Shown here one piece after another: positions 19,551-37,302 of a stretch of DNA of 64,000 nt. A program made the position numbers and the translations under genes. The notes beneath the pieces are model-generated. The model was not told where the DNA came from. It saw only the letters and a list, made by a program, of their open reading frames with translations, and did not search any database. Source of the DNA: Rhodophyticola porphyridii (GTDB taxonomy: Bacteria; Pseudomonadota; Alphaproteobacteria; Rhodobacterales; Rhodobacteraceae); assembly GCF_003688285.1 (NCBI RefSeq), contig NZ_RCNT01000001.1, positions 124,001-188,000 of the forward strand. Direction: 5' to 3'. Positions within the stretch are counted from its first letter, which is position 1. Each line of letters begins with the position of its first letter.

Positions 19551-21668
19551 TTAGTCCGGAATCGAAATCGCGGGCGGGCTGTTCAGGATCGTTTCGACAA
19601 GGGTCCGGGTCGCAGAGCTATCGGAGACTGTACGGCTGATGACCGTCAGATCCCGGATTGGCGGTGTGGGCGTCCCGTCTGTGGGCAAGGTTGCGATCAG
19701 TTCCGCGAATTCCGCATGTGGGCCGGCAGGCATTCCGGCAACGGCGGGCCAGTCGCCGCGACGCCATGCCGATGCCAGATCACTCTCGGCCGGAGTGTCC
19801 GCTGACAGGTTTTCAGGCGGATCGATCGGAATCCCGGGAGGCGCAACCCTGAAGACCAGTTCCTGCAAACCGGCCTCCAGAAACCGGCGCGCAATCTCCT
19901 GACGAAGAGGCGCAGTCGCGCGATCCTGATCCCATTGATCCGCGCGCGCCGTCGCCAGCAGGACCAGCCCCGCCAGATCCGGATTTGCAGCCTGTTGCGC
20001 GAAAAGATCCGTGAGTATCTCCTGCTCGACATCGGGATCGGTTGCCAGCGCAGCCAGTTCGAGTGCGCGTCCGAGATTTCCCGCCGCGGCGTGCGCCAGA
20101 AGTGTTTCATGCCAAAGCGTGCCTGGCTCCGGCCTCCCGCCGGTCTCTCGCAGCAAGGCATCCGCGACGGTCAGTCTTTCTGGGTCGACGACACTTCGTT
20201 CTTCGCGGTGCAATGCAAGTAAGCGTCGCATCGCTTCGGGGGCGTTTCGGGTATCGCTGCGCATCACCTCTTCCAGATTCGCTCGTGTCGTCTCCGGATC
20301 GCGTGTTTGCGCCACATCCATATCGACCAGGAATTGCTCCGCGTCGGATAACCGGTCGCCTCGGAGCAGAGCGTTGCGCACCTCTTGGGCAGATGCGGTG
20401 CGATCATCGGCCAGAAACTTGCGTACAAGCCGCGGCCCGAGAATATCGCGCAACCCACGCGGCAGGCCGGCGAATGCGCGCAGCAGAAGACGGGTTTCCT
20501 CCTCGCCGGGAGCCGGCCCGTCCTGACTGTCGAGATAGCGCCACAGAATCTCGGTACTGCTGCAGGCGGCGGTGGTTTCTATCTCGCTGAAGACGGGCCC
20601 TTCGGCATCTGTCAGATAGAGCGCCATGGACGTCAGCGCGGGCGGGGCATTCTGAACCTGATCGAGCCAGAAAACCGCCTCCGCGCCGAAGCCGTGGTAG
20701 ATGTAATATTGTGCAAGATCGATGGCTGCGTCGGGTATCAATTGATCCCGCTCATCATATAACCTGGCCCGAAGCCAGCCGATCTCCTGCTCAAACCCGG
20801 TTCCGCTGGCCCAACTCGAGATATCGAGTTCAGTGCCCGGCGCGCAGGACAGGGGTCGCTCTATCGGCGCGGGATCGTCACGGGCGTGACGGCTCAGATC
20901 GAAGGCGGTTTCTGCCCGCAAGGCGAGGCCCGGTTCAGGCGCCTCGACCGCCTGTTCATCTTCGACCGTCGGATGTGACCCCTCCTCAGCTGCGAGATGG
21001 TCATCAGACGGTGCCGGCTCATCGGGTTCCGCCCTGATCGAAGGCGTCGGATCCGCGGCCGATAGTGGCTGCATCGGAGCGACCTCCAGCAGCCCGGCGG
21101 AAGAGGCCCGCGCCAATTGCTCGGCCAGCAGATTTGCAGCCTGATCGAGCTGATGGTTTTGCTCCGGACCGGTTTGCAGGGGCGACGCTGCATCCTGGGC
21201 GATGTCCAGCGTCATCTGCCGCGCGCCAAAGGGATTTGGGAGGATCGGAAGCTCCGCACCCGTCGGCGTCGATGTGTCTGTCAGCGCAGGGTCTTCCGTT
21301 CCGGCGGTCGGCCCCGGATCGGCATCGACAATATCGACCACGAGGAACCGGTCGCGATACCGGAACAGACGCAACTCGCAATCGCAGGCGAGCGAAAGCG
21401 TGAGTTCATCTGCGAGCGCGATATCGGCAAGGCGGTTGCGGCTGGCCCGGTCGAAAACGCGGGAGAGATCGAGCGCGGGCACATCCGGGGTGAAGGTGAT
21501 CCGGCGGATCTCTCCCTCCCCGCCGACCTCCCAGTCCCGCTGGCTTCCGATCGGCAGGACCAACCGGGTATAGCCGTCATGTTCACCCGACTGAACCGTC
21601 GCCGATTGCCCCCATGCGAGCCCGGCCCCAAACAGCCAGACCGTCAAACTGACGGCTACGCGGATCAT
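19551..21668 (-). CDS. Large periplasmic flagellar-operon protein, possible MotC-like stator accessory
   Basis: 705 residues with a signal peptide (MIRVAVSLTVWLFGAGLAWGQ). Residues ~22-115 are beta-rich and resemble an AMIN-type domain (GYTRLVLPIG...EIRRITFTPDVPALDLSRVF...LTLSLACDCELRLFRYRDRFLVVDIVD). Residues ~120-270 are acidic, Pro-rich linker. The remainder is helical and looks like a TPR/solenoid (FGAEAVFWLDQVQNAPPALTS, AAGNLGRALELAALATDPDVEQEILTDLFAQQAANPDLAGLVLLATA). It overlaps motA by 4 bp, and a MotE-like gene lies upstream. In rhizobia MotE is the chaperone of the periplasmic motor protein MotC, so a MotC-type role is inferred from context, not from recognised similarity. Confidence 0.6.
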   Translation of the reverse strand: MIRVAVSLTVWLFGAGLAWGQSATVQSGEHDGYTRLVLPIGSQRDWEVGGEGEIRRITFTPDVPALDLSRVFDRASRNRLADIALADELTLSLACDCELRLFRYRDRFLVVDIVDADPGPTAGTEDPALTDTSTPTGAELPILPNPFGARQMTLDIAQDAASPLQTGPEQNHQLDQAANLLAEQLARASSAGLLEVAPMQPLSAADPTPSIRAEPDEPAPSDDHLAAEEGSHPTVEDEQAVEAPEPGLALRAETAFDLSRHARDDPAPIERPLSCAPGTELDISSWASGTGFEQEIGWLRARLYDERDQLIPDAAIDLAQYYIYHGFGAEAVFWLDQVQNAPPALTSMALYLTDAEGPVFSEIETTAACSSTEILWRYLDSQDGPAPGEEETRLLLRAFAGLPRGLRDILGPRLVRKFLADDRTASAQEVRNALLRGDRLSDAEQFLVDMDVAQTRDPETTRANLEEVMRSDTRNAPEAMRRLLALHREERSVVDPERLTVADALLRETGGRPEPGTLWHETLLAHAAAGNLGRALELAALATDPDVEQEILTDLFAQQAANPDLAGLVLLATARADQWDQDRATAPLRQEIARRFLEAGLQELVFRVAPPGIPIDPPENLSADTPAESDLASAWRRGDWPAVAGMPAGPHAEFAELIATLPTDGTPTPPIRDLTVISRTVSDSSATRTLVETILNSPPAISIPD

Positions 21669-22585: not shown

Positions 22586-23200
22586 TTAATTTTCAGTGTC
22601 GTCGCCTTCGGCAAATCGCGGTGCGGAGGCGTTGCGTGTGGCCATGAGCACCGAAATGGAATAGGCGGTTTCAGGTGGCATCTCGGCCAGGAGAGCCGCG
22701 CCGGCTTCGGGGCGCATTCGGGCCAGAAATCCTGCGGCGAAACTGGGTTCCATCTGTTCGAACAAGGCCGCTGCGGTTTCGGGGCGCATGGTTTCATAGA
22801 CCTGTGTCAGCCGGCCAAGATCGTTTTCAGCCGCGCTGTCGGACAGGGCGAGAAGCGTTTCCAGTCGCACTTCCAGATCTGCCAGTTCGGCCAGGCGATC
22901 TTCGACCAGGGTTTGCGCGGCGGCAATCGCCTGCTCCCGCCCGTCAAGTTCGGCTTCCCGCTGGTCCAGCATTTCCGCCCGCCCGTGGACCATTGTTAGG
23001 GCCTCGCTGAGTGGTGCGGTTGTCGGGCACATGAGGCCGGTTTCATCGCTCGCCATATCGTGCGTTTCGGTGGCCGACGCCCATGCGATATCCATTGTGC
23101 CGAGGCGAAGGATGCCGGAGGTTACAAAGGCGAGAGCGAGCACGAGCAGGACGCTTCTCTGGCGCCAGCGGCTTCGCCGGAGGATCTTCGCGCCGCTCAT
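22586..23200 (-). CDS. motE: MotE-family periplasmic protein (MgtE_N-like)
   Basis: 204 residues. An N-terminal membrane anchor or uncleaved signal (QRSVLLVLALAFVTSGILRLG) is followed by a coiled coil (HGRAEMLDQREAELDGREQAIAAAQTLVEDRLAELADLEVRLETLLAL). The C-terminal domain has two MgtE-N/FliG-like repeats (LTQVYETMRPETAAALFEQMEPSFAAGFLARMRPEAGAALLAEMPPETAYSIS). This matches the MotE family; in Sinorhizobium MotE is a periplasmic chaperone for MotC. It lies 48 bp upstream of motA and overlaps the preceding 172-residue gene by 4 bp. Confidence 0.82.
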   Translation of the reverse strand: MSGAKILRRSRWRQRSVLLVLALAFVTSGILRLGTMDIAWASATETHDMASDETGLMCPTTAPLSEALTMVHGRAEMLDQREAELDGREQAIAAAQTLVEDRLAELADLEVRLETLLALSDSAAENDLGRLTQVYETMRPETAAALFEQMEPSFAAGFLARMRPEAGAALLAEMPPETAYSISVLMATRNASAPRFAEGDDTEN

Positions 23201-23715
23201 TGCGCGGCCTCGATCTGCCCGGAGCGGCGATGGCGGAACACAGGCTGAGCGCTCTGCTCTTCCGGCTCTGCCGCGGCCCGTCGGCGGGCGAAAAGCGGAG
23301 TTTCGGTTGCGGGTTCTTCGGCCTCAGGGTCCGTGTCCTCTTGGAGGAGTCCGGGGAACTCCTCCTCAGGATGAGGCTCGGAGTCCTCGACAGGCACGGG
23401 ATCACCGGCTGGTTCTGGCGCCGCCACGTCGTGGCAGGCGGCAATCATCAGCTCCAGATCGCTTGCGATCTCGCGCGCCTGGTGTGTCAGATCCTGAAGA
23501 TGGGAGGCGGCGGAGTCAGACTCCGACTTCGCCGCCTCAAGCGCCTTGTTCATATCGTCGACCTGGGCGGACAAGACGGCGATCGCGCCGCCAAGACCCT
23601 TGTCGATACTGCTCAGCCTGGTCAGCCGACGGGACAGAATGAAGCAATAGACTGCCGCGCCAAGGGCGGCGACCACCATGAGAGCATCTGCGAGAAAGGT
23701 CAGAAAAACCGTCAT
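23197..23715 (-). CDS. Single-pass membrane coiled-coil protein of the flagellar operon, function unknown
   Basis: 172 residues. One N-terminal membrane helix (LTFLADALMVVAALGAAVYCFILSRRL) is followed by a cytoplasmic-looking coiled coil (SIDKGLGGAIAVLSAQVDDMNKALEAAKSESDSAASHLQDLTHQAREIASDLELMI) and an acidic, Pro-rich, probably disordered tail ending in basic residues. Similar small membrane proteins occur between fliL and motE in alphaproteobacterial flagellar operons. It overlaps motE by 4 bp and shares one base with the fliL stop. I recognise no domain with a known biochemical function. Confidence 0.7.
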   Translation of the reverse strand: MTVFLTFLADALMVVAALGAAVYCFILSRRLTRLSSIDKGLGGAIAVLSAQVDDMNKALEAAKSESDSAASHLQDLTHQAREIASDLELMIAACHDVAAPEPAGDPVPVEDSEPHPEEEFPGLLQEDTDPEAEEPATETPLFARRRAAAEPEEQSAQPVFRHRRSGQIEAAQ

Positions 23716-24337: not shown

Positions 24338-26014
24338 ATGAGGTTTCAGGTGGAGCAGCTCAGTCTCTATTGGATGACGTTGGAAACACGCCGAAAGGCG
24401 CTTTTCCTGGGCGGGCTGGCGGCCCTTGTGGTGGTCCTGATTATCCTGTCTCGCCTGGCGACGACACCCAGCTATGTTCTGCTGTATTCCGGTCTGGAGC
24501 CAACCGCCGCAGGGGAGGTCATCGCGGCACTGGAAGCGCGCGGGGTCGCCCATTCGATTCGGGGCGACGCCATCTATGTCGATCAGTCGCGGCGCGACGA
24601 ATTGCGGATGTCCCTGGCCGGCGAGGGACTGCCGGCAAATGGCGCGGCCGGATACGAGTTGCTTGATTCGCTTTCCGGTTTCGGGACGACGTCGCAGATG
24701 TTCGATGCCGCGTATTGGCGCGCCAAGGAGGGGGAACTGGCCCGCACCATCCTGGCAAGCCCGCAAATCCGCGCCGCCCGCGTGCATCTCGCCAACCCCG
24801 GCAACGATCCGTTTCAGGACCGCGCCGAGGTCACCGCCTCTGTCGCGGTCCGGCCGGCGGCCGGCGGAATCGGGGCGGGTCATGCTCGCGCTCTGCGATT
24901 TCTGGTCGCCTCCTCCGTGCCGGGCCTTCTTCCGGAAAATGTAACCGTCATCGACGCGGATAGCGGGCAGATAATCGGTGCAAGTGAACTGGATATGCCG
25001 GGCGCCGATGCTGCGAATCGCTCCGAGGAGTTGCGGCGCAATATCGAACGATTGCTGGCGGCGCGTGTGGGCCGCGACAATGCGGTGGTAGAGGTCAGTG
25101 TCGATCTGAACACCGCCCATGAGACGATTGTCGAGCGGCGGATCGATCCTGAAAGCCGGATCATTATCGCCACCGATACCGAGGAAATGTCGAACAGTTC
25201 CAGCGACGCGGCATCGGGTGCGGTCACCGTGGCCTCCAACCTGCCCGATGGCGATGCGGCCGGGGATGGCCAAAGTTCCAGGGCGGAGACAAGCGAAACC
25301 CGTGAGCGCGTGACTTTCGACGTATCCGAAACCCAGCGCGAAATCGAGCTCGAACCCGGTGGCATTCGCCGGATCAGCGTGGCGGTTCTGGTCAATGGTG
25401 TCCCTCGTGTGAATGCCGACGGCCTTGAGGTGATCGAGCCACGCGACCCCGAAGAAATAGACGCGTTGGAGCAACTCGTGCGTTCCGCTATCGGGTATGA
25501 CGCTGAGCGCGGCGATCAGGTGACGATCCGCTCCATGGCATTCGAGGTATTGCCCGCCGGTGAGCTGATCGAGGGCGGTGGCAATGGCCTGCTGGCGCAA
25601 CTCGACATGATGCGGCTTGCCCAGCTGGTCATCCTCGCGGCTGTCGCGCTGGCCATCGCGTTCGGACTGATCCGGCCGATTCTGAGCCGCCCGCCAATGG
25701 TCGCGCCGGAGGGGCCCCGCGGCCTGCCACTGACGCCCGCCCTGTCGCAAGGGGCGCTTGTCCCCACACAATCCGCGATGGACGGCACGACATCGACCCA
25801 GGTGCTTGGATACGATCCGTCGCAATCGCCCTCGGGCAGCTCTGGTTCGGACGGGGCCGCAGCCGATGCCGAAGCGGGCACCCCCGGATTGCCGGCTGTT
25901 TCGACTGCGGTGGCGGATCCCGTGGAACGCTTGCGGCGACTTATCGAAGAACGCGAAGACGAAACCGTCGAAATCCTCCGGGGCTGGATGGAAGAAGACG
26001 AGGAACCCGCATGA
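24338..26014 (+). CDS. fliF: Flagellar MS-ring protein FliF
   Basis: 558 residues. Two membrane helices flank the periplasmic ring-building domains: ALFLGGLAALVVVLIILSRLA near the start and LAQLVILAAVALAIAFGLIRPIL near residue 430. Ring-building motifs include YVLLYSGLEPTAAGEVIAALEARGVAHSIRGDAIYV and ARVHLANPGNDPFQ. The C-terminus (DPVERLRRLIEEREDETVEILRGWMEEDEEPA) is the helical tail that binds FliG-N in other bacteria, so a FliG partner should exist although none is in the window. A GTG 12 bp downstream, better spaced from AGGATGAGG, is an alternative start. It overlaps fliH by 4 bp. Confidence 0.96.
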   Translation: MRFQVEQLSLYWMTLETRRKALFLGGLAALVVVLIILSRLATTPSYVLLYSGLEPTAAGEVIAALEARGVAHSIRGDAIYVDQSRRDELRMSLAGEGLPANGAAGYELLDSLSGFGTTSQMFDAAYWRAKEGELARTILASPQIRAARVHLANPGNDPFQDRAEVTASVAVRPAAGGIGAGHARALRFLVASSVPGLLPENVTVIDADSGQIIGASELDMPGADAANRSEELRRNIERLLAARVGRDNAVVEVSVDLNTAHETIVERRIDPESRIIIATDTEEMSNSSSDAASGAVTVASNLPDGDAAGDGQSSRAETSETRERVTFDVSETQREIELEPGGIRRISVAVLVNGVPRVNADGLEVIEPRDPEEIDALEQLVRSAIGYDAERGDQVTIRSMAFEVLPAGELIEGGGNGLLAQLDMMRLAQLVILAAVALAIAFGLIRPILSRPPMVAPEGPRGLPLTPALSQGALVPTQSAMDGTTSTQVLGYDPSQSPSGSSGSDGAAADAEAGTPGLPAVSTAVADPVERLRRLIEEREDETVEILRGWMEEDEEPA

Positions 26015-26628
26015 GCGCCCGCCGGCTGGACCTGGAGGAGTTCGGGCAACCGTCTGCGCCGGAAAGCGTGGCGCCCGCACCGGCGCATCACGACCTTGAG
26101 GCGATAAAGCTCGATGCGTTCGAGAGCGGTTATCGCGACGGGTGGGACGATTGCCTGAGTGCGGAGCAGCAGGGACGGGCGCAGATCGGTTCCGACCTGA
26201 GCCGAAACCTGAAGGATCTCAGCTTCACGTATCTGGAGGCCCGGAACGATGTTCTGAAAGGTCTTCAGGCACTGCTGGACGGGATCATCGAGCGTCTGGT
26301 GCCGGAGGTCGCGGCCGCCGCCATGGTTCCCATGGTGCGCGCCGAACTGGCATCAATTCTCGGAACGCTGCCGGATGAGACATGTGAAATCCTGGCATCG
26401 CCCGCAGCTTGTCCGGCTTTGGAGGCCCTTGTCGCCGAACACGTGGAGACCGAGATCAGGATCGTCCCCGAGCCTGCCTATTTCGAAGGCCATGTCACCC
26501 TGCGGTTCGGAGCCGAGTTGCGCGAAATCGACTTGGGCGCCGCGACCGAACGGATTGCTCAAGCCATTCGCGATTTCACCCTGAACAGCGACGACGACCT
26601 ACCTCAGCAACACGAGAGATCAGCCTGA
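26011..26628 (+). CDS. fliH: FliH-like export ATPase regulator
   Basis: 205 residues. The central helix with spaced glycines (DAFESGYRDGWDDCLSAEQ) and the C-terminal alpha/beta domain (LVAEHVETEIRIVPEPAYFEGHVTLRFGAELREIDLGAATERIAQAIRDF) fit FliH/HrpE-type stalk proteins that regulate FliI. It lies between fliF and fliN, where fliG-fliH would be expected; the fliG gene is missing. It shares one base with the fliN start. Confidence 0.75.
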   Translation: MSARRLDLEEFGQPSAPESVAPAPAHHDLEAIKLDAFESGYRDGWDDCLSAEQQGRAQIGSDLSRNLKDLSFTYLEARNDVLKGLQALLDGIIERLVPEVAAAAMVPMVRAELASILGTLPDETCEILASPAACPALEALVAEHVETEIRIVPEPAYFEGHVTLRFGAELREIDLGAATERIAQAIRDFTLNSDDDLPQQHERSA

Positions 26629-26906
26629 TGTCCGATCCCACCGCTCTTCCCCCCAAAGGCGCATTGCGCGGCGTGCCCATCGAGATGCGGGTTTGCGTCG
26701 GGCGCGCGCACCCGACAATCGCCGAGCTTCTGTCAATGGAACGCGACACGGTCCTGCCGCTGGATCGGCGAATCGAAGACGAGGTCGAGGTGATTGTCGG
26801 CGACCGGCTGGTGGCGATCGGCGAACTGGTCGAGCTGGATGGCGACAATGTCGGGCAACTCGCCGTCCGTCTGACCAAGGTCGTGGATGCCGGCGATGCT
26901 GCATAA
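26628..26906 (+). CDS. fliN: Flagellar switch protein FliN
   Basis: 92 residues, essentially one SpoA domain: GVPIEMRVCVGRAHPTIAELLSMERDTVLPLDRRIEDEVEVIVGDRLVAIGELVELDGDNVGQLAVRLTKVVD. It is the small C-ring subunit that also docks FliH-FliI. It starts at the ATG overlapping the fliH stop (TGATG) and overlaps fliP by about 20 bp (or 11 bp if fliP starts at 26896). The FliM partner is not visible in this window. Confidence 0.93.
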   Translation: MSDPTALPPKGALRGVPIEMRVCVGRAHPTIAELLSMERDTVLPLDRRIEDEVEVIVGDRLVAIGELVELDGDNVGQLAVRLTKVVDAGDAA

Positions 26907-27624
26907 GCGGCTTTGTCTCGCCTGCTTTGGTCTGCTGGTCATGCTGCTGGCGACCCAGACCGCGCAGGCGCAGGAAATCTCCATCGACATGGGCGATGGC
27001 GGCTCTCTTACCGTCCGTGCGCTTCAGCTGATTGCGCTGATTACCGTGCTCAGCCTTGCGCCCGGCCTTGCGGTGATGATCACGTGTTTTCCTTTCGTGG
27101 TGACGGTTCTTTCCATCCTCCGTCAGGCCATCGGCCTGCAGCAGTCACCCCCCAATATGCTGATCGTCAGCCTGGCCCTGTTTCTGACCTATTTCGTGAT
27201 GGCGCCCGTTTTTCAGGATGCCTACACTCAAGGCATCGCACCCTTGATCGACGGCACCCTGACCCCGGAAAGTGCGATCCCGCTGGCCTATGCGCCGTTT
27301 CGCGCGTTCATGGAGGCGCGCGTCGATCCCGAAACCCTGCGGGGCATGATGGAGTTGCGCAACGCACCGGTCGACGCGTCGCCGGACCCCTCGGTGCTGA
27401 TCCCGTCCTTCATGCTCAGCGAAGTCGAGCGCGCATTCCAGATCGGGTTCCTCATTTTCCTGCCATTTCTGATCATTGATCTGGTCGTCGCCGCGATCCT
27501 CATGTCCATGGGGATGATGATGGTGCCGCCGGCCATTGTCTCGATGCCGTTCAAGCTGGCGTTTTTCGTTGTGGCGGATGGCTGGGCATTGATCACCAGT
27601 GCGCTGGTCCGCAGCTATTTCTGA
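26887..27624 (+). CDS. fliP: Flagellar export gate protein FliP
   Basis: 245 residues. FliP is unusual among gate proteins in having a cleaved signal peptide, and one is visible here (LHKRLCLACFGLLVMLLATQTAQAQ). Conserved features are LQLIALITVLSLAPGLAVMITCFPFVVTVLSILRQAIGLQQSPPNMLIVSLALFLTYFVMAPVF and the C-terminal AFQIGFLIFLPFLIIDLVVAAILMSMGMMMVPPAIVSMPFKLAFFVVADGW. The start at 26887 or at the ATG at 26896 (MLHKR) would both fit; the latter gives a cleaner signal. Confidence 0.97.
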   Translation: MPAMLHKRLCLACFGLLVMLLATQTAQAQEISIDMGDGGSLTVRALQLIALITVLSLAPGLAVMITCFPFVVTVLSILRQAIGLQQSPPNMLIVSLALFLTYFVMAPVFQDAYTQGIAPLIDGTLTPESAIPLAYAPFRAFMEARVDPETLRGMMELRNAPVDASPDPSVLIPSFMLSEVERAFQIGFLIFLPFLIIDLVVAAILMSMGMMMVPPAIVSMPFKLAFFVVADGWALITSALVRSYF

Positions 27625-27636
27625 AGGGACATCACC

Positions 27637-28119
27637 ATGGTGCAGCATCCAGAGCAGCCAAGATCCGGCCCCGCCCCAACCGGCGATCCCAAGTGGAAGG
27701 CCGACAAGGCGAGGGTTCTGCTGGGCCTTCTGGGTCCGGAACGCTTCGAGGCTTTTCGGAAAGGTTCCCCCGATGGGGCAGGCCTGAACATCGACACATC
27801 CGTTCCGACGGACAGCGATGTGACCGCGTGGCAACGCAACCGTCTGATACAGAGGTTTCGCGACAGGGGCCTGCTGGCCGGTGAGGATGCTGATGCGCCC
27901 GTGCGAGCTCATGCTCCCAGAATTGATCCACCATCGGGCGCCCCCGCACTGGTGGCGCGGTTGGCGGATAATCTCGATGACGCAACACTGATGAACGAAC
28001 ATCCGGCAGTGATCGCGCATCTTCTCAAACCGCAAAGTACCGCTCTGCGCGCGCGGGTTCTGCGGCAGCTGCCGGGGGCGCAGGCCCGTGCCGTCATGCG
28101 GGTCTTGAAGGCCCTGTAG
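27637..28119 (+). CDS. Small protein with a C-terminal FliG-middle-domain-like motif
   Basis: 160 residues, 12 bp after fliP and probably co-transcribed. The N-terminal ~110 residues are hydrophilic and unrecognised (KWKADKARVLLGLLGPERFEAF...). The last ~50 residues read LVARLADNLDDATLMNEHPAVIAHLLKPQSTALRARVLRQLPGAQARAVMRVLKAL. This resembles the first helices of the FliG middle domain, with its EHPQ motif (EHPA here) and following AxxLxxLPxxxxxxVxxR pattern. It lacks the rest of FliG, including the torque helix, and so is not a complete FliG. It could be a C-ring or MS-ring accessory. The similarity was judged by eye. Confidence 0.6.
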   Translation: MVQHPEQPRSGPAPTGDPKWKADKARVLLGLLGPERFEAFRKGSPDGAGLNIDTSVPTDSDVTAWQRNRLIQRFRDRGLLAGEDADAPVRAHAPRIDPPSGAPALVARLADNLDDATLMNEHPAVIAHLLKPQSTALRARVLRQLPGAQARAVMRVLKAL

Positions 28120-28360: not shown

Positions 28361-29464
28361 TCAGCGGACGATGAACTCGGCGTGTAACGCGCCGGCCGCC
28401 TGGATGCTGTTCAGAATGTCGATCATGTCCCGGGGCGACACGCCGAGCGCGTTCAGGCCTGCGACAACTTCCGACAGGGACGTGCCGCCGCTGATTTCGG
28501 CAAGCCCTGTTCCGGGCTCTTCGACAAGATCCACGTCAGTCCGGGGAACGATGACGGTTTCGCCTTCTGCGAACGGGTTCGGTTGCACCGCGATCGGGCG
28601 CTCCTCGATCCGCAAGGTCAGGTTCCCCTGCGCAATCGCCACGCGAGAAATCCGTACATCTTCGCCCATCACGATTGTGCCGGAGCGTTGATCGACAACC
28701 ACACGCGCCCGGATTTCCGGCTCGACGAACAGGTTTTCCACCCGGCTGAGTGCGTGGGCGGGAGAGGCCGATCTGGTGGCGGCCACATCAAGGGTGACGG
28801 TGCCCGAATCCAGCATGACGGCAACGCGGCGGCCAAACTCCGCATTGATTGCGCCTTCGATCCTTGCGGCCGTGGTGAAATCGGGCGTTCGAAGGGCGAG
28901 GCGGATATCCCGGAGGGCGGAAAAGTCGAACTCGACCTCGCGCTCGATCCGCGCCCCTGAAGGGACGACGCCGGCGGTGGGCACACCTTGCACCACCCGC
29001 GCGCCGTCCCCTTCCGCCGAAGCGCCGCCGGCGATGACCGTGCCTTGTGCGACCGCATAGATTTCCCCGTCGGCCGCGGTGAGCGGCGTCATGACCAGCG
29101 TCCCTCCCAGAAGGCTGTCGGCATCGCCGATGGCCGATACTGTGATATCGATCTGACTGCCAGCACGGGAAAACGGCGGCAAGCTTGCCGTGACGAAGAC
29201 CGCCGCCACATTCTGTGGCCGGAATTGCTCTCCGGAGACATTGACACCCAGGCGTTCCAGGATGTTGGTCATGATTTCTTCGGTGAACGGGGCGTTACGA
29301 ATTCCATCTCCTGTACCGTTCAACCCCACCACGAGACCATAGCCGATCAGGTCATTGCCGCGGACCCCGTCGAACTCCACAAGGTCGCGGATACGGATGG
29401 GAGAGGCCGTGACCTGAGCCGCCATCAGCATCAACAGAATTGCGGAAGCAAGCATGCGCATCAT
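28361..29464 (-). CDS. flgI: Flagellar P-ring protein FlgI
   Basis: 367 residues, the usual FlgI size. It has a signal peptide (MMRMLASAILLMLMAAQVTAS) followed by PIRIRDLVEFDGVRGNDLIGYGLVVGLNGTGDG, the family hallmark. The C-terminus GTSLSEVVAGLNALGVSPRDMIDILNSIQAAGALHAEFIV is also typical. It forms the periplasmic P ring around the rod. It is last of the flgE-flgK-flgL-flgI operon and overlaps flgL by 4 bp. The 241 bp downstream, before the convergent small gene at 27637, shows nothing I can support. Confidence 0.97.
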   Translation of the reverse strand: MMRMLASAILLMLMAAQVTASPIRIRDLVEFDGVRGNDLIGYGLVVGLNGTGDGIRNAPFTEEIMTNILERLGVNVSGEQFRPQNVAAVFVTASLPPFSRAGSQIDITVSAIGDADSLLGGTLVMTPLTAADGEIYAVAQGTVIAGGASAEGDGARVVQGVPTAGVVPSGARIEREVEFDFSALRDIRLALRTPDFTTAARIEGAINAEFGRRVAVMLDSGTVTLDVAATRSASPAHALSRVENLFVEPEIRARVVVDQRSGTIVMGEDVRISRVAIAQGNLTLRIEERPIAVQPNPFAEGETVIVPRTDVDLVEEPGTGLAEISGGTSLSEVVAGLNALGVSPRDMIDILNSIQAAGALHAEFIVR

Positions 29465-34290: not shown

Positions 34291-35432
34291 GACCTCTCTG
34301 TTCAGATGATTTGGAAGATATCTGTTGTGATGTCTGCGATGTCGGTGTCGAGGAAGGTGATTGTGACGCCGCTGTCGGCGAGCAGCAGATCGGTGCCCTG
34401 CCGGGTCAGGTCGGCAAGCACGGCGCCCGCATCGGCATAGCTGAACCCGTCCAGGATCACCCAGTCCCACGCCTCCAGATCCACCACCTCATGGGTCCCG
34501 CCATCGCCGGCGTCGAAGACGAAACTGTCCGCCCCGAACCCGCCGAAGACCGCATTGGCGCCGCCGCCCCCCTCCAGCCGGTCGCCGGGGAAGGTGGCGC
34601 GCATCCAGGCGCTGAGATCGGGTCCCGTATTGTCCCGGAATTCGGCGCTCTCGGCGAACCCGCGCACCACCTCCTCCCGGCTGAGCGTGCCGTCATCCAG
34701 AAGCCCGCGCCAGCCCTGCAGCCCGGCCGGATCGGGCGCCCGGCCCAGCACGTTTTCATACATCAGCGTGACGAATTCGGCATTGTCCGTCGCGCCGTAC
34801 CGCCCCTGGAACTCGGACGAGTTGACGAAGCCCGACACCACCTCCAGATAAGGCCGCCCACCGGCCAGCTCCCCGACCCAGGCCAGCAGGCCGCCCGGAT
34901 CGGGCGCCCGGTCCAGCGTCGCCTGATACAGCCGGAACACCTCGTCGGCCCAGTTGGCCCGGTACCCCGCCTGGCTGAACTCCAGCGCCCCGGCGGCGGT
35001 GTTGCCCATGAACTCCTGGCTTTCGGAGAACCCGAACACCACCTCCGCCCGGCTGAGCGCACCGCTGTCGAGCTGGTCGCGCCAGGCCTGCAGCCCCGCC
35101 GGATCGGGCGCCCGGCCCAGCACGTTCTCATACATCAGCGTGACGAACTCGGTCGTGTCCGTCGCGCCGTACCGCCCCTGGAACTCCGGGGAGCCCATGA
35201 ACCCCTCGATCACCTGCAGAAGGCTTGCCTGCCCGTCGCGCAGCGTCTCCGTCCAGCCCCGATGCCCGGCCGCATCCGGCGCCCGGTCCAGCGTCGCCTG
35301 ATACAGCCGGAACACCTGCGCCGAGACCGGGTCAAACCCCACATCCACATCGTCCCCGTTCAGAACGTCATCCCCAAAACCCCCGAACAAACTGTCCGAA
35401 CCAGACCCGCCAACAAGCAGGTCAGAGCCGGC
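34291..35432 (-). repeat. Inverted repeat copy A (1142 bp), 3' end of the M10 protease gene
   Basis: Near-identical to 47341-48482 in the opposite orientation. Equal length, no gaps, and five mismatches seen on base-by-base reading (a C/G at a silent site, GGT versus AGC giving Gly to Ser, and two silent third-position changes). The repeat begins inside an RTX nonapeptide run, covers the DUF4214 region and the stop codon, and continues 11 bp past the stop (to ...AGAGGTC), after which the copies diverge abruptly. Confidence 0.95.
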
Positions 35433-36827
35433 GCCCCCATCAATCTGGTTGGCGATGCCATTTCCGAGGACGTAGTCCGACCCGCTGCCCGCGTTGAGGT
35501 TCTCGATCAGCGTATCGCGGGCGATCACCAGATTGCCGGTCAGGCCATAGATATCCGATATGCCCTGCGCCCGCATATCGATCGTCTGATCGGCAGGGTC
35601 GTCACTGAAGTCGAACAGATCGGTGCCGCCCGCGTCGTAGATGGTCAGGGCAAACGCCTGATCGCCGTAGTGGTTCGCCGGATCCTGGCCGTTATGGACC
35701 GCATCCATCAGGAGCTGCATGTACCCGGTTTGAGTATGGCCGCGCCCGTAGACCGTATCGCCGGCGGATGCCGCGCTTTGCGCATCCGGGGCGCCGTACA
35801 GATCCTGTATCGCAAGAATGTCGGCGAGCATCGGGGTGACAAGCGCCGCCCGGCTGGCATTGACTGTCGTATTCTCATCTTGCGAGAAATACGACATCAC
35901 CGACAGCTGATAGCTGTCATTGATGAAATCGTTGTCGATCCCGAAAACCGCCGAGCCGTTGTAACCGCCCTGATGCCCGAGACCAAGCGCGTGGCCGACC
36001 TCGTGAATATAGGTCTGGAAGGAGTAATCGTCGATCTGGGTGCCGTAGGTCTGCAACCAGGCGGTGGAGACGTTCACCCAGGCGAAAGTGGTCACATCTC
36101 CTGTCGCCTGATAGTTGGCAAATGCACCGGACTGGTCATCGTCGAAATCGATCATCGCGTCCGTGACGCTGAACACCTCGACGAATCTGAGATCGGCCAC
36201 CGCTTCCCAGGCTTCCAGCGCCCATTCGGCCAGGCGCCGGCCATCGGCCGTCAATTCGTTGAGATAAACGGTGATCTCGTTGCTTTGGCTGGTGTCGAAC
36301 GCGTGGCGGGCCCCGCCGAATTGCTGCCAGAAACCATCTGTCAGGAAGCTGGCAAGTTCATCCGGGGAGCCTGCCGGCGCGTCCGACGCGGTATTGACCG
36401 TGACCTCGTAGGCGCCGGTCCCCGCATCGGCATAGGCGCCGAGATCGAGGTAGAAGGTGCCCGAACTGCCCGGCGCATAGATGATCCTGGAGTCCAGGTT
36501 GGTTCGCGGGACGATATCGTCGTTATCGGCCACCTGAACGCCGCTGGCATCGCGCAGACGCAGGTAGGGATCGGCAAGCTCCGCGCCCCCCACCCCGGTC
36601 AGGTCGATTTCGTAGGTTACATTCGCCTCCAGCTGCACCGCGACCCAGTCGCGATCCCCGAAGGAAGAGATCTGGCCGGCGAAGACATCCCCCAACGAGA
36701 TCGAATAGGCGGTGTTCTGGCCAGCCGCGGCATCGGCCCCCTCCGTCACACGGGCCTGGGTTCCGGTCGCCGTGCCATAGGGGCAGCTATCGTCATAGGG
36801 GCGGAAGGAGGTACAGATCATACACAT
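34302..36827 (-). CDS. Secreted M10 (serralysin-type) metalloprotease with RTX and DUF4214 repeats
   Basis: 841 residues from the ATG at 36827, preceded by AGGACC. The N-terminus is Cys-containing (MCMICTSFRPYDDSC) with no Sec signal, as expected for type I secretion. A PPC-like beta domain (~residues 40-140) precedes the catalytic domain. Zinc ligands are H275, H279 and H285 in HEVGHALGLGH, with catalytic E276 and the Met-turn SVMSYF. An RTX block (GGAGSDLLVGGSGSDSLFGGFGDD) starts the C-terminal 376 residues, followed by two tandem ~115-residue units each carrying two DUF4214-like halves (FRLYQATLDRAPD and EFVTLMYENVLGRAPDPAGL). The C-terminus is almost identical to that of the gene at 45739. 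No type I exporter gene is in the window. Confidence 0.9.
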   Translation of the reverse strand: MCMICTSFRPYDDSCPYGTATGTQARVTEGADAAAGQNTAYSISLGDVFAGQISSFGDRDWVAVQLEANVTYEIDLTGVGGAELADPYLRLRDASGVQVADNDDIVPRTNLDSRIIYAPGSSGTFYLDLGAYADAGTGAYEVTVNTASDAPAGSPDELASFLTDGFWQQFGGARHAFDTSQSNEITVYLNELTADGRRLAEWALEAWEAVADLRFVEVFSVTDAMIDFDDDQSGAFANYQATGDVTTFAWVNVSTAWLQTYGTQIDDYSFQTYIHEVGHALGLGHQGGYNGSAVFGIDNDFINDSYQLSVMSYFSQDENTTVNASRAALVTPMLADILAIQDLYGAPDAQSAASAGDTVYGRGHTQTGYMQLLMDAVHNGQDPANHYGDQAFALTIYDAGGTDLFDFSDDPADQTIDMRAQGISDIYGLTGNLVIARDTLIENLNAGSGSDYVLGNGIANQIDGGAGSDLLVGGSGSDSLFGGFGDDVLNGDDVDVGFDPVSAQVFRLYQATLDRAPDAAGHRGWTETLRDGQASLLQVIEGFMGSPEFQGRYGATDTTEFVTLMYENVLGRAPDPAGLQAWRDQLDSGALSRAEVVFGFSESQEFMGNTAAGALEFSQAGYRANWADEVFRLYQATLDRAPDPGGLLAWVGELAGGRPYLEVVSGFVNSSEFQGRYGATDNAEFVTLMYENVLGRAPDPAGLQGWRGLLDDGTLSREEVVRGFAESAEFRDNTGPDLSAWMRATFPGDRLEGGGGANAVFGGFGADSFVFDAGDGGTHEVVDLEAWDWVILDGFSYADAGAVLADLTRQGTDLLLADSGVTITFLDTDIADITTDIFQII

Positions 36828-36837
36828 CAAACAGGTC

Positions 36838-37302
36838 CTATTCGGAAGGTGCCGGGCTGAAAGGCAGCGGGGCACTGCGCACAAGCCCGTCGGCGAAACG
36901 TTGGTGAAGTGCCGGCGACAACGTGGTGTCCAGCAGTCCGAACCGGATCCGTGGCCCTCGCCCCTTCGCCGCGGCGCTGCGCCATTCCAGATGCGCGACA
37001 ATCAGGTCTGGACGCAGATCATGGATCGTCATCACGAAGGCCAGATCGGCGGGATCGTCGCCGAAACTCAGACCGTGGGCTTGGGAGAGCGCCATCTGCA
37101 CGGCCCCGCAGAGCCCCGGCACCTGCCCGTCCATGTCGGGCACCGCCACGTCACAGCGAAGCGTGGCCGAAACCGGTGGCTGATCGGCGAAGATGGGGGC
37201 GGTGGCGGCAGAGACCACGGCAAGTCCTCCAAGTATCTGATTCAGTTTTCGCGGCCGACGCGTTTTGCGGGCGGCACCTGTGTTGCGACTGATCGGTTTC
37301 AC
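36838..37302 (-). CDS. Small secreted protein upstream of the M10 protease, function unknown
   Basis: 154 residues from a GTG with a GGGAG site six bases upstream; a TTG at 37380 would add 26 residues. It has a basic N-terminus and a probable signal peptide (NQILGGLAVVSAATAPIFADQ). The mature part contains two Cys (TLRCDVAVPDMDGQVPGLCGAVQMAL) and SFGDDPADLAFVMTIHDLRPDLIVAHLEWRSA. It ends 10 bp before the protease start and is surely co-transcribed. Proteases of this type often have a periplasmic inhibitor partner, but no known inhibitor family was recognised, so that role is only a guess. Confidence 0.7.
   Translation of the reverse strand: MKPISRNTGAARKTRRPRKLNQILGGLAVVSAATAPIFADQPPVSATLRCDVAVPDMDGQVPGLCGAVQMALSQAHGLSFGDDPADLAFVMTIHDLRPDLIVAHLEWRSAAAKGRGPRIRFGLLDTTLSPALHQRFADGLVRSAPLPFSPAPSE

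Follow-up and report, generated by a model that had tools for sequence, protein, structure and literature searches.

A short FliG-like protein encoded behind fliP in Rhodophyticola porphyridii, probably a miniaturised FliG paralogue

Which protein closes the fliF-fliH-fliN-fliP run of Rhodophyticola porphyridii, and why does it look like a piece of FliG? FliG is built of three domains that work together, and these are covered by the families FliG_N (PF14842), FliG_M (PF14841), and FliG_C (PF01706). In the 64,000-nucleotide stretch of the genome that was analyzed (hereafter the window), a gene for a protein of 160 residues lies behind fliP, and a first-pass annotation had noted in it a C-terminus like the start of the FliG middle domain. 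We consider it likely that this gene is a miniaturised fliG paralogue which sits at a fliG site and is still functional, the working fliG being elsewhere in the genome. That the short protein originated from a FliG is very likely.

According to the available sections of two accounts of the Rhodobacterales (PMC11974857, PMC12363192), the fla1 cluster consists of fliFHNP facing motBflgEKLI, and in Phaeobacter inhibens fliG lies far outside this cluster and is required for motility (Tomasch and others). The same sections call the fla1 inserts of D. shibae and C. sphaeroides non-flagellar and describe no such gene between fliP and flgI; the word fliM occurs in them once per paper, in the reference list. 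In the portion of the literature that was accessible, we found no report of a truncated FliG behind fliP, or of a joint loss of the FliG motif EHPQ and the FliM residues GG.

Gene neighbourhood and rotor genes of the genome

The reading frame of the short protein is translated without an inner stop, and its ATG lies 12 bases downstream of the fliP stop (Table 1). Scanning for promoters and terminators around the gene gave nothing exceeding chance. Among the neighbours named in the first-pass annotation, fliF, fliN, and fliP were confirmed by Pfam matches, whereas fliH was recovered weakly and by NCBIfam only. The C-terminal tail of FliF, which had been described as FliG-binding-like, is itself present (DPVERLRRLIEEREDETVEILRGWMEEDEEPA), and FliF tails of such type bind FliG. 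The convergent gene that bounds the slot, which we take to be flgI, was found by tblastn in 9 of 12 relatives.

Table 1. Positions in the window of the short-protein gene, its parts, and its neighbours
Feature	Position	Strand	Basis or remark
fliF	24338..26014	+	PF01514, PF08345
fliH-like	26011..26628	+	NCBIfam E 3e-4, weak, below cut-off; no Pfam match
fliN	26628..26906	+	PF01052; start inferred inside longer listed ORF 26409-26906
fliP	26887..27624	+	PF00813, TIGR01103
fliP stop, ribosome-binding-site-like AAGGGA (27624-27629), and start codon	27622..27640	+	
Short protein, 160 residues, putative shrunken FliG	27637..28119	+	closes fliF-fliH-fliN-fliP run
Helices aligning with first helix of FliG_N (KADKARVLLGLLGPE vs AEKAAVVLVALGPE), residues 18-43	27688..27765	+	hhalign; model helices 18-32 and 34-43
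Further N-terminal helix, residues 60-76	27814..27864	+	alignment A3; model helix 60-76
First half of FliG middle (armadillo) domain, residues 102-160	27940..28116	+	FliG_M match, hhalign, fold match
EHPA motif, counterpart of FliG EHPQ, residues 121-124	27997..28008	+	
flgI (presumed)	28361..29464	-	convergent; bounds the slot (fliP > slot < flgI)

Other genes of the window touch the same organelle. On the reverse strand, gene order suggests that an MgtE_N protein (22586-23200) is CP3, a DUF6468 protein (23197-23715) is CP2, and a 705-residue protein (19551-21668) is CP4; CP2, CP3, and CP4 are required for motility in P. inhibens. Also on the reverse strand and beside flagellar genes, a large reading frame (34302-37001) contains internal repeats and the zinc-protease pattern HEVGHALGLGH, and its product is presumably serralysin-like.

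The first-pass annotation had further claimed that the locus lacks fliG and fliM. This holds for the locus: FliG_C has no match anywhere in the 64-kb window, and the sole match of the FliM/FliN C-terminal domain there is fliN. For the genome as a whole the claim is false, as both genes were found on contig C12. The genome has one complete FliG, a protein of 356 residues in which FliG_N, FliG_M, and FliG_C each exceed their cut-offs (FliG_C at C12:354864-355196). A FliM-like protein of 362 residues is encoded on the same contig (locus L009:781-1869; FliM/FliN C-terminal domain at C12:298918-299118), although a search of the genome with the FliM family PF02154 returned zero matches. Absence of FliM was rejected despite this miss. 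Specifically, a profile of 21 FliM-like proteins, that of this genome being the first, matched solved FliM structures with a best E of 7.4e-23, while PF02154 matched 10 of the 21 individually. The AlphaFold2 model of the FliM-like protein had a mean pLDDT of 77.7. Because another contig encodes FliG in full as well as a divergent FliM, and FliN is encoded too, the C-ring is not reduced, and the suggestion that the short protein is part of a reduced one was dropped. The equivalent of this divergent FliM may be the FliM of the Rhodobacterales fla1 flagellum.

Kinship with FliG

The C-terminal part of the short protein is homologous to FliG_M. Positions 8-45 of the 76 positions of this family match residues 118-155 (E 4e-4, 20.9 bits, cut-off 25), and at E up to 10 the family matches all eight members of alignment A2, the 160-residue protein included, with a best E of 1.7e-5. 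The FliG-M-like C-terminus described beforehand is thereby borne out. Neither FliG_N nor the torque domain FliG_C had a Pfam match in the 160-residue protein, NCBIfam had none, and phmmer with this protein alone returned nothing from the PDB at E up to 10. When a profile of 17 proteins was compared with all PDB sequences, the top match was Aquifex FliG (3hjl, residues 4-164), which covered profile positions 10-157 at E 6.9e-5 (best single stretch E 4.7e-4). Ranks 2 and 3 were also FliG (E 0.06-0.07), and ribosomal L6 proteins followed from E 0.21. The profile searches that the annotation had proposed as a check on FliG or MgtE_N similarity thus favoured FliG, both in A2 and in the PDB.

The profile also found matches in 21 of 385 alphaproteobacterial genomes, own included. 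In the 20 non-own genomes there were 21 matches, all within frames of 337-368 residues; 20 of them cover most of the profile and one covers positions 65-158. Eleven of these loci were re-checked: ten had the profile match, and nine of those ten also had an MFTF pattern like that of FliG_C (locus L233 has the match without MFTF, and L230 has an inner stop and no match). The best matches outside the short-protein group are FliGs, with the same order along the protein.

Profile-profile alignments were made with hhalign, whose E-values refer to one single comparison. The main target comprised ten full FliGs encoded in the slot behind fliP (slot FliGs) plus the fragment of genome G093. The C-terminal parts of the short proteins aligned with it over 48 ungapped columns (E 4.5e-7, probability 92.6%). 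For the N-terminal parts E was 2.3e-3 and the probability 12.5%, or 40.2% against the N-terminal FliG parts alone, and the alignment placed KADKARVLLGLLGPE of the short protein opposite AEKAAVVLVALGPE of FliG. Values were weaker for FliGs encoded outside the slot (6.6e-6 C-terminal, 1.4e-2 N-terminal) and for those of other flagellar types (8.3e-6 and 0.082). Column shuffles reached the real score against slot FliGs in 0 of 100 cases for the C-terminal and 1 of 100 for the N-terminal parts; in an earlier run of 60 shuffles the counts were 0 and 0 for slot FliGs and 0 and 1 for other FliGs. In each of two runs one value above 130 was counted as reaching the real score. On these alignments, homology of the N-terminal part to FliG is supported but weaker. 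Since this part seems FliG-like too, if on weaker evidence, the protein looks like a shrunken FliG, not like some unrelated protein that ends in FliG-M-like residues.

Armadillo-type helices are also found in MotE and in MgtE_N proteins, so a protein of that type that does not derive from FliG had to be considered. MgtE rows do occur in the Foldseek and VIA-align fold lists, and MgtE_N (PF03448) matches three of the eight A2 members weakly (best E 0.0083). In the 160-residue protein itself, however, PF03448 had no match at E up to 10; FliG_M is the stronger family and matches all eight members, and whole-profile searches give FliG first. An MgtE_N protein encoded in the window itself (22586-23200) aligned unconvincingly with the profile (hhalign E 0.5). 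Identity with MotE was therefore rejected, and we regard any origin of this kind as most improbable. The controls compared with the whole profile, namely that MgtE_N protein, the fliH-like protein, the DUF6468 protein, FliN, a protein presumed to be FliL, and the FliM alignment, gave hhalign E-values of 0.07-0.83.

The AlphaFold2 model of the short protein had a mean pLDDT of 67, with block means of 84-90 over residues 121-160 and 46-76 elsewhere (51-67 over 101-120). The seven best Foldseek matches were FliG entries or C-ring chains as long as FliG, with the C-ring alone named in some titles; the best E was 0.12, and none reached 0.001. Ranks 1-11 of VIA-align were likewise FliG entries or C-ring chains with the length of FliG. 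They were headed by C-ring chain 8wiw_3 (Z 8.5, rmsd 13.3 over 132 residues), and H. pylori FliG matched at 1.7 A over 57 residues (Z 6.4). Tight matches were confined to residues 92-160, and the Z values of 5.8-8.5 are modest, such values being common for helical models according to the warning of the tool. Prediction of the protein alone, as the annotation had proposed, thus ranked FliG chains first, but with Foldseek E-values of at least 0.12.

Across the 17 rows of alignment A3, residues P99, E121, P123, A124, L145, G147, and R151 are invariant, and the motif reads EHPA in 16 rows and ENPA in one. The pattern WQRNRLIQR in the helix of residues 60-76 is common to part of the homologues. Judging by the alignment, the conserved portion of the short protein is its C-terminal part. 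The EHPA motif may merely cap a helix. Likeness to FliG consists of an N-terminal helix (the weaker match) followed, as in FliG, by the initial half of the middle domain, EHP included; the difference is one of extent, with 160 residues against about 350, an incomplete FliG_N, half of FliG_M, and no FliG_C. The short protein would have retained a compressed N-terminal part of two or three helices, the first resembling helix 1 of FliG_N, and, after a variable linker, the first half of the armadillo domain with EHPA. The remainder of the armadillo domain and the entire torque domain are missing.

The slot behind fliP in related genomes

A single-sequence search found the gene in 3 of 149 family genomes, one of the three being the genome studied here; one named relative is Boseongicola sp. 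H5, whose copy is 92% identical to the 160-residue protein. Six of the seven genomes of the genus have it, own included (the copy of G154 is a fragment at a contig end). The seventh, G152, probably has no flagellum because neither FliG_C nor the FliM/FliN C-terminal domains were found in it. With a profile of eight relatives, 54 of 394 family genomes gave a match with E no higher than 0.1, and the best 12 (E 1.3e-5 or better, own included) were counted as short proteins. Among the other 42 rows, 18 were inspected (L062-L079), and 17 of these, all but L079, were identified as FliG through tblastn or from the reading frame. All 12 short-protein loci lie directly behind fliP, and the converging flgI is visible in nine and outside the fetched DNA in three. 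Carriers belong to this genus and 11 others. A search of the plasmid collection at E 0.01 gave no relative.

Four states of the slot were seen across related genera: a full-length FliG, a 200-residue FliG N+M form (one genome), the short protein, or nothing detected. The slot was inspected in 90 of the 122 family genomes with FliP (30 loci and 60 more), using tblastn with the proteins of the window, the profile of eight, and inspection of the frames listed. Of these 90, eight had a full FliG right behind fliP, one the fragment of G093, three the short protein, and 78 nothing detected; two further cases of a full FliG in that position, G281 and G168, came from the profile search. Diverged fragments may be missed among the 78, because that of G093 surfaced by frame reading only. 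The short protein thus occupies what in related genera is the slot of a full fliG.

The slot FliG of G093 (L081:1356-1958) matches FliG_N with 46.8 bits and FliG_M with 65.5 bits, and has no FliG_C match. There is no space for a C domain, because its stop is followed by a convergent neighbour on the opposite strand, detected 618 bases behind fliP. One relative therefore carries a two-domain FliG in this slot. Beside it, G093 has a complete FliG elsewhere, with EHAQ in place of EHPQ.

FliG_C was sought in 40 chosen genomes and was present in 39. In all ten slot-full genomes the slot copy is the only FliG_C, and all 29 flagellated genomes without a full slot FliG have a complete FliG elsewhere. 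The short protein therefore differs from a slot FliG in coexisting with a complete one. G242 alone has two copies of FliG_C. On contigs C11, C25, C7, and C33 it encodes these two proteins plus four copies of the FliM/FliN C-terminal domain, and it probably has a second flagellar system; the short protein lies next to one of the two systems.

In a FliP+FliN tree of the 39 genomes, those with a full slot FliG plus G093 were split from the rest with support 1.0, and 13 of the 16 short-protein genomes formed a clade (support 0.994). The other three, G176, G242, and G315, attach outside that clade with support of 0.32, 0.78, and 0.07. In an unrooted tree of FliG, the sequences from G176 and G093 fall between the slot FliGs and the remainder. 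From these positions we infer a probably early origin of the short protein, followed by frequent loss. A tree of 60 residues placed the short proteins as one clade on a long branch beside all fla1 FliGs, and an attempt to place them inside either the slot or the relocated FliGs failed. Because the clade lies outside the slot FliGs, the main argument for descent from the slot copy is position.

Selection and possible roles at the rotor

Compared with its counterpart in G153, the gene of the window differs by 24 synonymous and 14 nonsynonymous changes (dN/dS 0.19). Synonymous and nonsynonymous changes number 6 and 0 in residues 104-160, 4 and 0 in residues 19-45, and 10 and 9 in the linker: both ends of the protein are under constraint in this pair. 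For the pair G000/G151, in which dS is near saturation, dN/dS was 0.19 over the whole gene and 0.06 in residues 104-160; G151/G150 gave 0.31 and 0.17. For G149/G150 the values were 0.52 and 0.54, with few changes. As controls, FliN ranged from 0.05 to 0.33 in four pairs, and fliP gave 0.00 in one pair only.

These values bear on whether the gene is a decaying, functionless remnant of fliG that is open by chance. Its fast evolution, its variable linker, its absence from most genomes searched, and the 0.52 of one pair would fit such a remnant. Against this stand the constraint at both ends in the pair of the window and a frame that is open in all 16 complete rows of A3, from 12 genera (the TGA of G383 is a terminal stop). 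Given the dN/dS values, we consider a dead remnant improbable, though conceivable in some lineages. Whatever the gene does is dispensable in much of the family, because the slot held nothing detectable in 78 of the 90 fliP loci.

If the short protein is a functional FliG derivative, as we favour, the absence of the torque domain implies that it is not a motor subunit of the usual kind. Since selection preserves its ends, and since it is encoded with fliF, fliH, fliN, and fliP, we tentatively propose an accessory role at the rotor, in the FliG-FliM layer, in assembly or switching. The armadillo half-domain would be presented to a rotor protein, FliG or FliM. An accessory was also among the suggestions of the first-pass annotation, and it is a reasonable one for a role deduced from anatomy. 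Somewhat unlikely, by comparison, is a competitor or chaperone that binds FliF, or the armadillo surfaces of freshly synthesised FliG, and thereby blocks premature ring formation or sets the C-ring number. The FliG_N-like first helix, the half middle domain without a torque domain, and the company of fliF would suit it; the FliG_N fold is, however, incomplete. Spirochaetes possess a FliG1/FliG2 pair in which the second paralogue is full-length. The present case likewise involves a second FliG paralogue, but one reduced to a fragment. Taken with the two-domain form that a relative has in this slot, a fragment that is under selection and lacks the torque domain provides a natural deletion series.

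The motif kept by the short protein has changed in the working rotor. In the available parts of two papers, EHPQ of FliG and GGXG of FliM are a coevolving contact that is treated as central (PMC4642947, PMC7355467). We read FliG in all 39 flagellated genomes and FliM in 21 of them (loci L009 and L209-L228), the genomes having been chosen and not drawn at random. EHPQ is kept in 10 of 10 slot FliGs and in 6 of 6 FliGs of other flagellar types. It occurs in 0 of 29 fla1 FliGs outside the slot, in 28 of which the residue after E is S, T, or A (the other being that of G093). Where the short protein is present, all 16 FliGs read have E followed by S or T. The position of the GGXG loop in FliM was read from a MAFFT alignment of divergent proteins. 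Of the 10 slot-full genomes, 9 have GG there, the exception being G101 with TGAHG; of the 11 others (five with the short protein, five with an empty slot, and G093), none has it.

One could therefore imagine a FliG split in this lineage, in which the relocated full-length FliG has lost the EHPQ contact, together with GGXG of FliM, and the short protein supplies the missing EHP element in trans, on or in the C-ring. EHPQ is lacking from all 16 working FliGs while EHPA is kept in 16 of 17 short proteins, as such a split would predict. Yet the empty-slot genomes lack EHPQ as well (0 of 12) and have no short protein, and in the five short-protein genomes whose FliM was read, the GG that EHPQ would contact is absent. 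The short protein thus retains EHPA while FliM of the same genomes is without GG, and we judge the split distinctly unlikely, preferring a miniaturised paralogue with an accessory role.

FliG EHPQ and FliM GG are missing together where a complete fliG is not behind fliP. This joint absence, with EHPQ lacking in 29 of the 39 FliGs and GG in 11 of the 21 FliMs, suggests motors that run without that FliG-FliM contact, whose necessity becomes directly testable.
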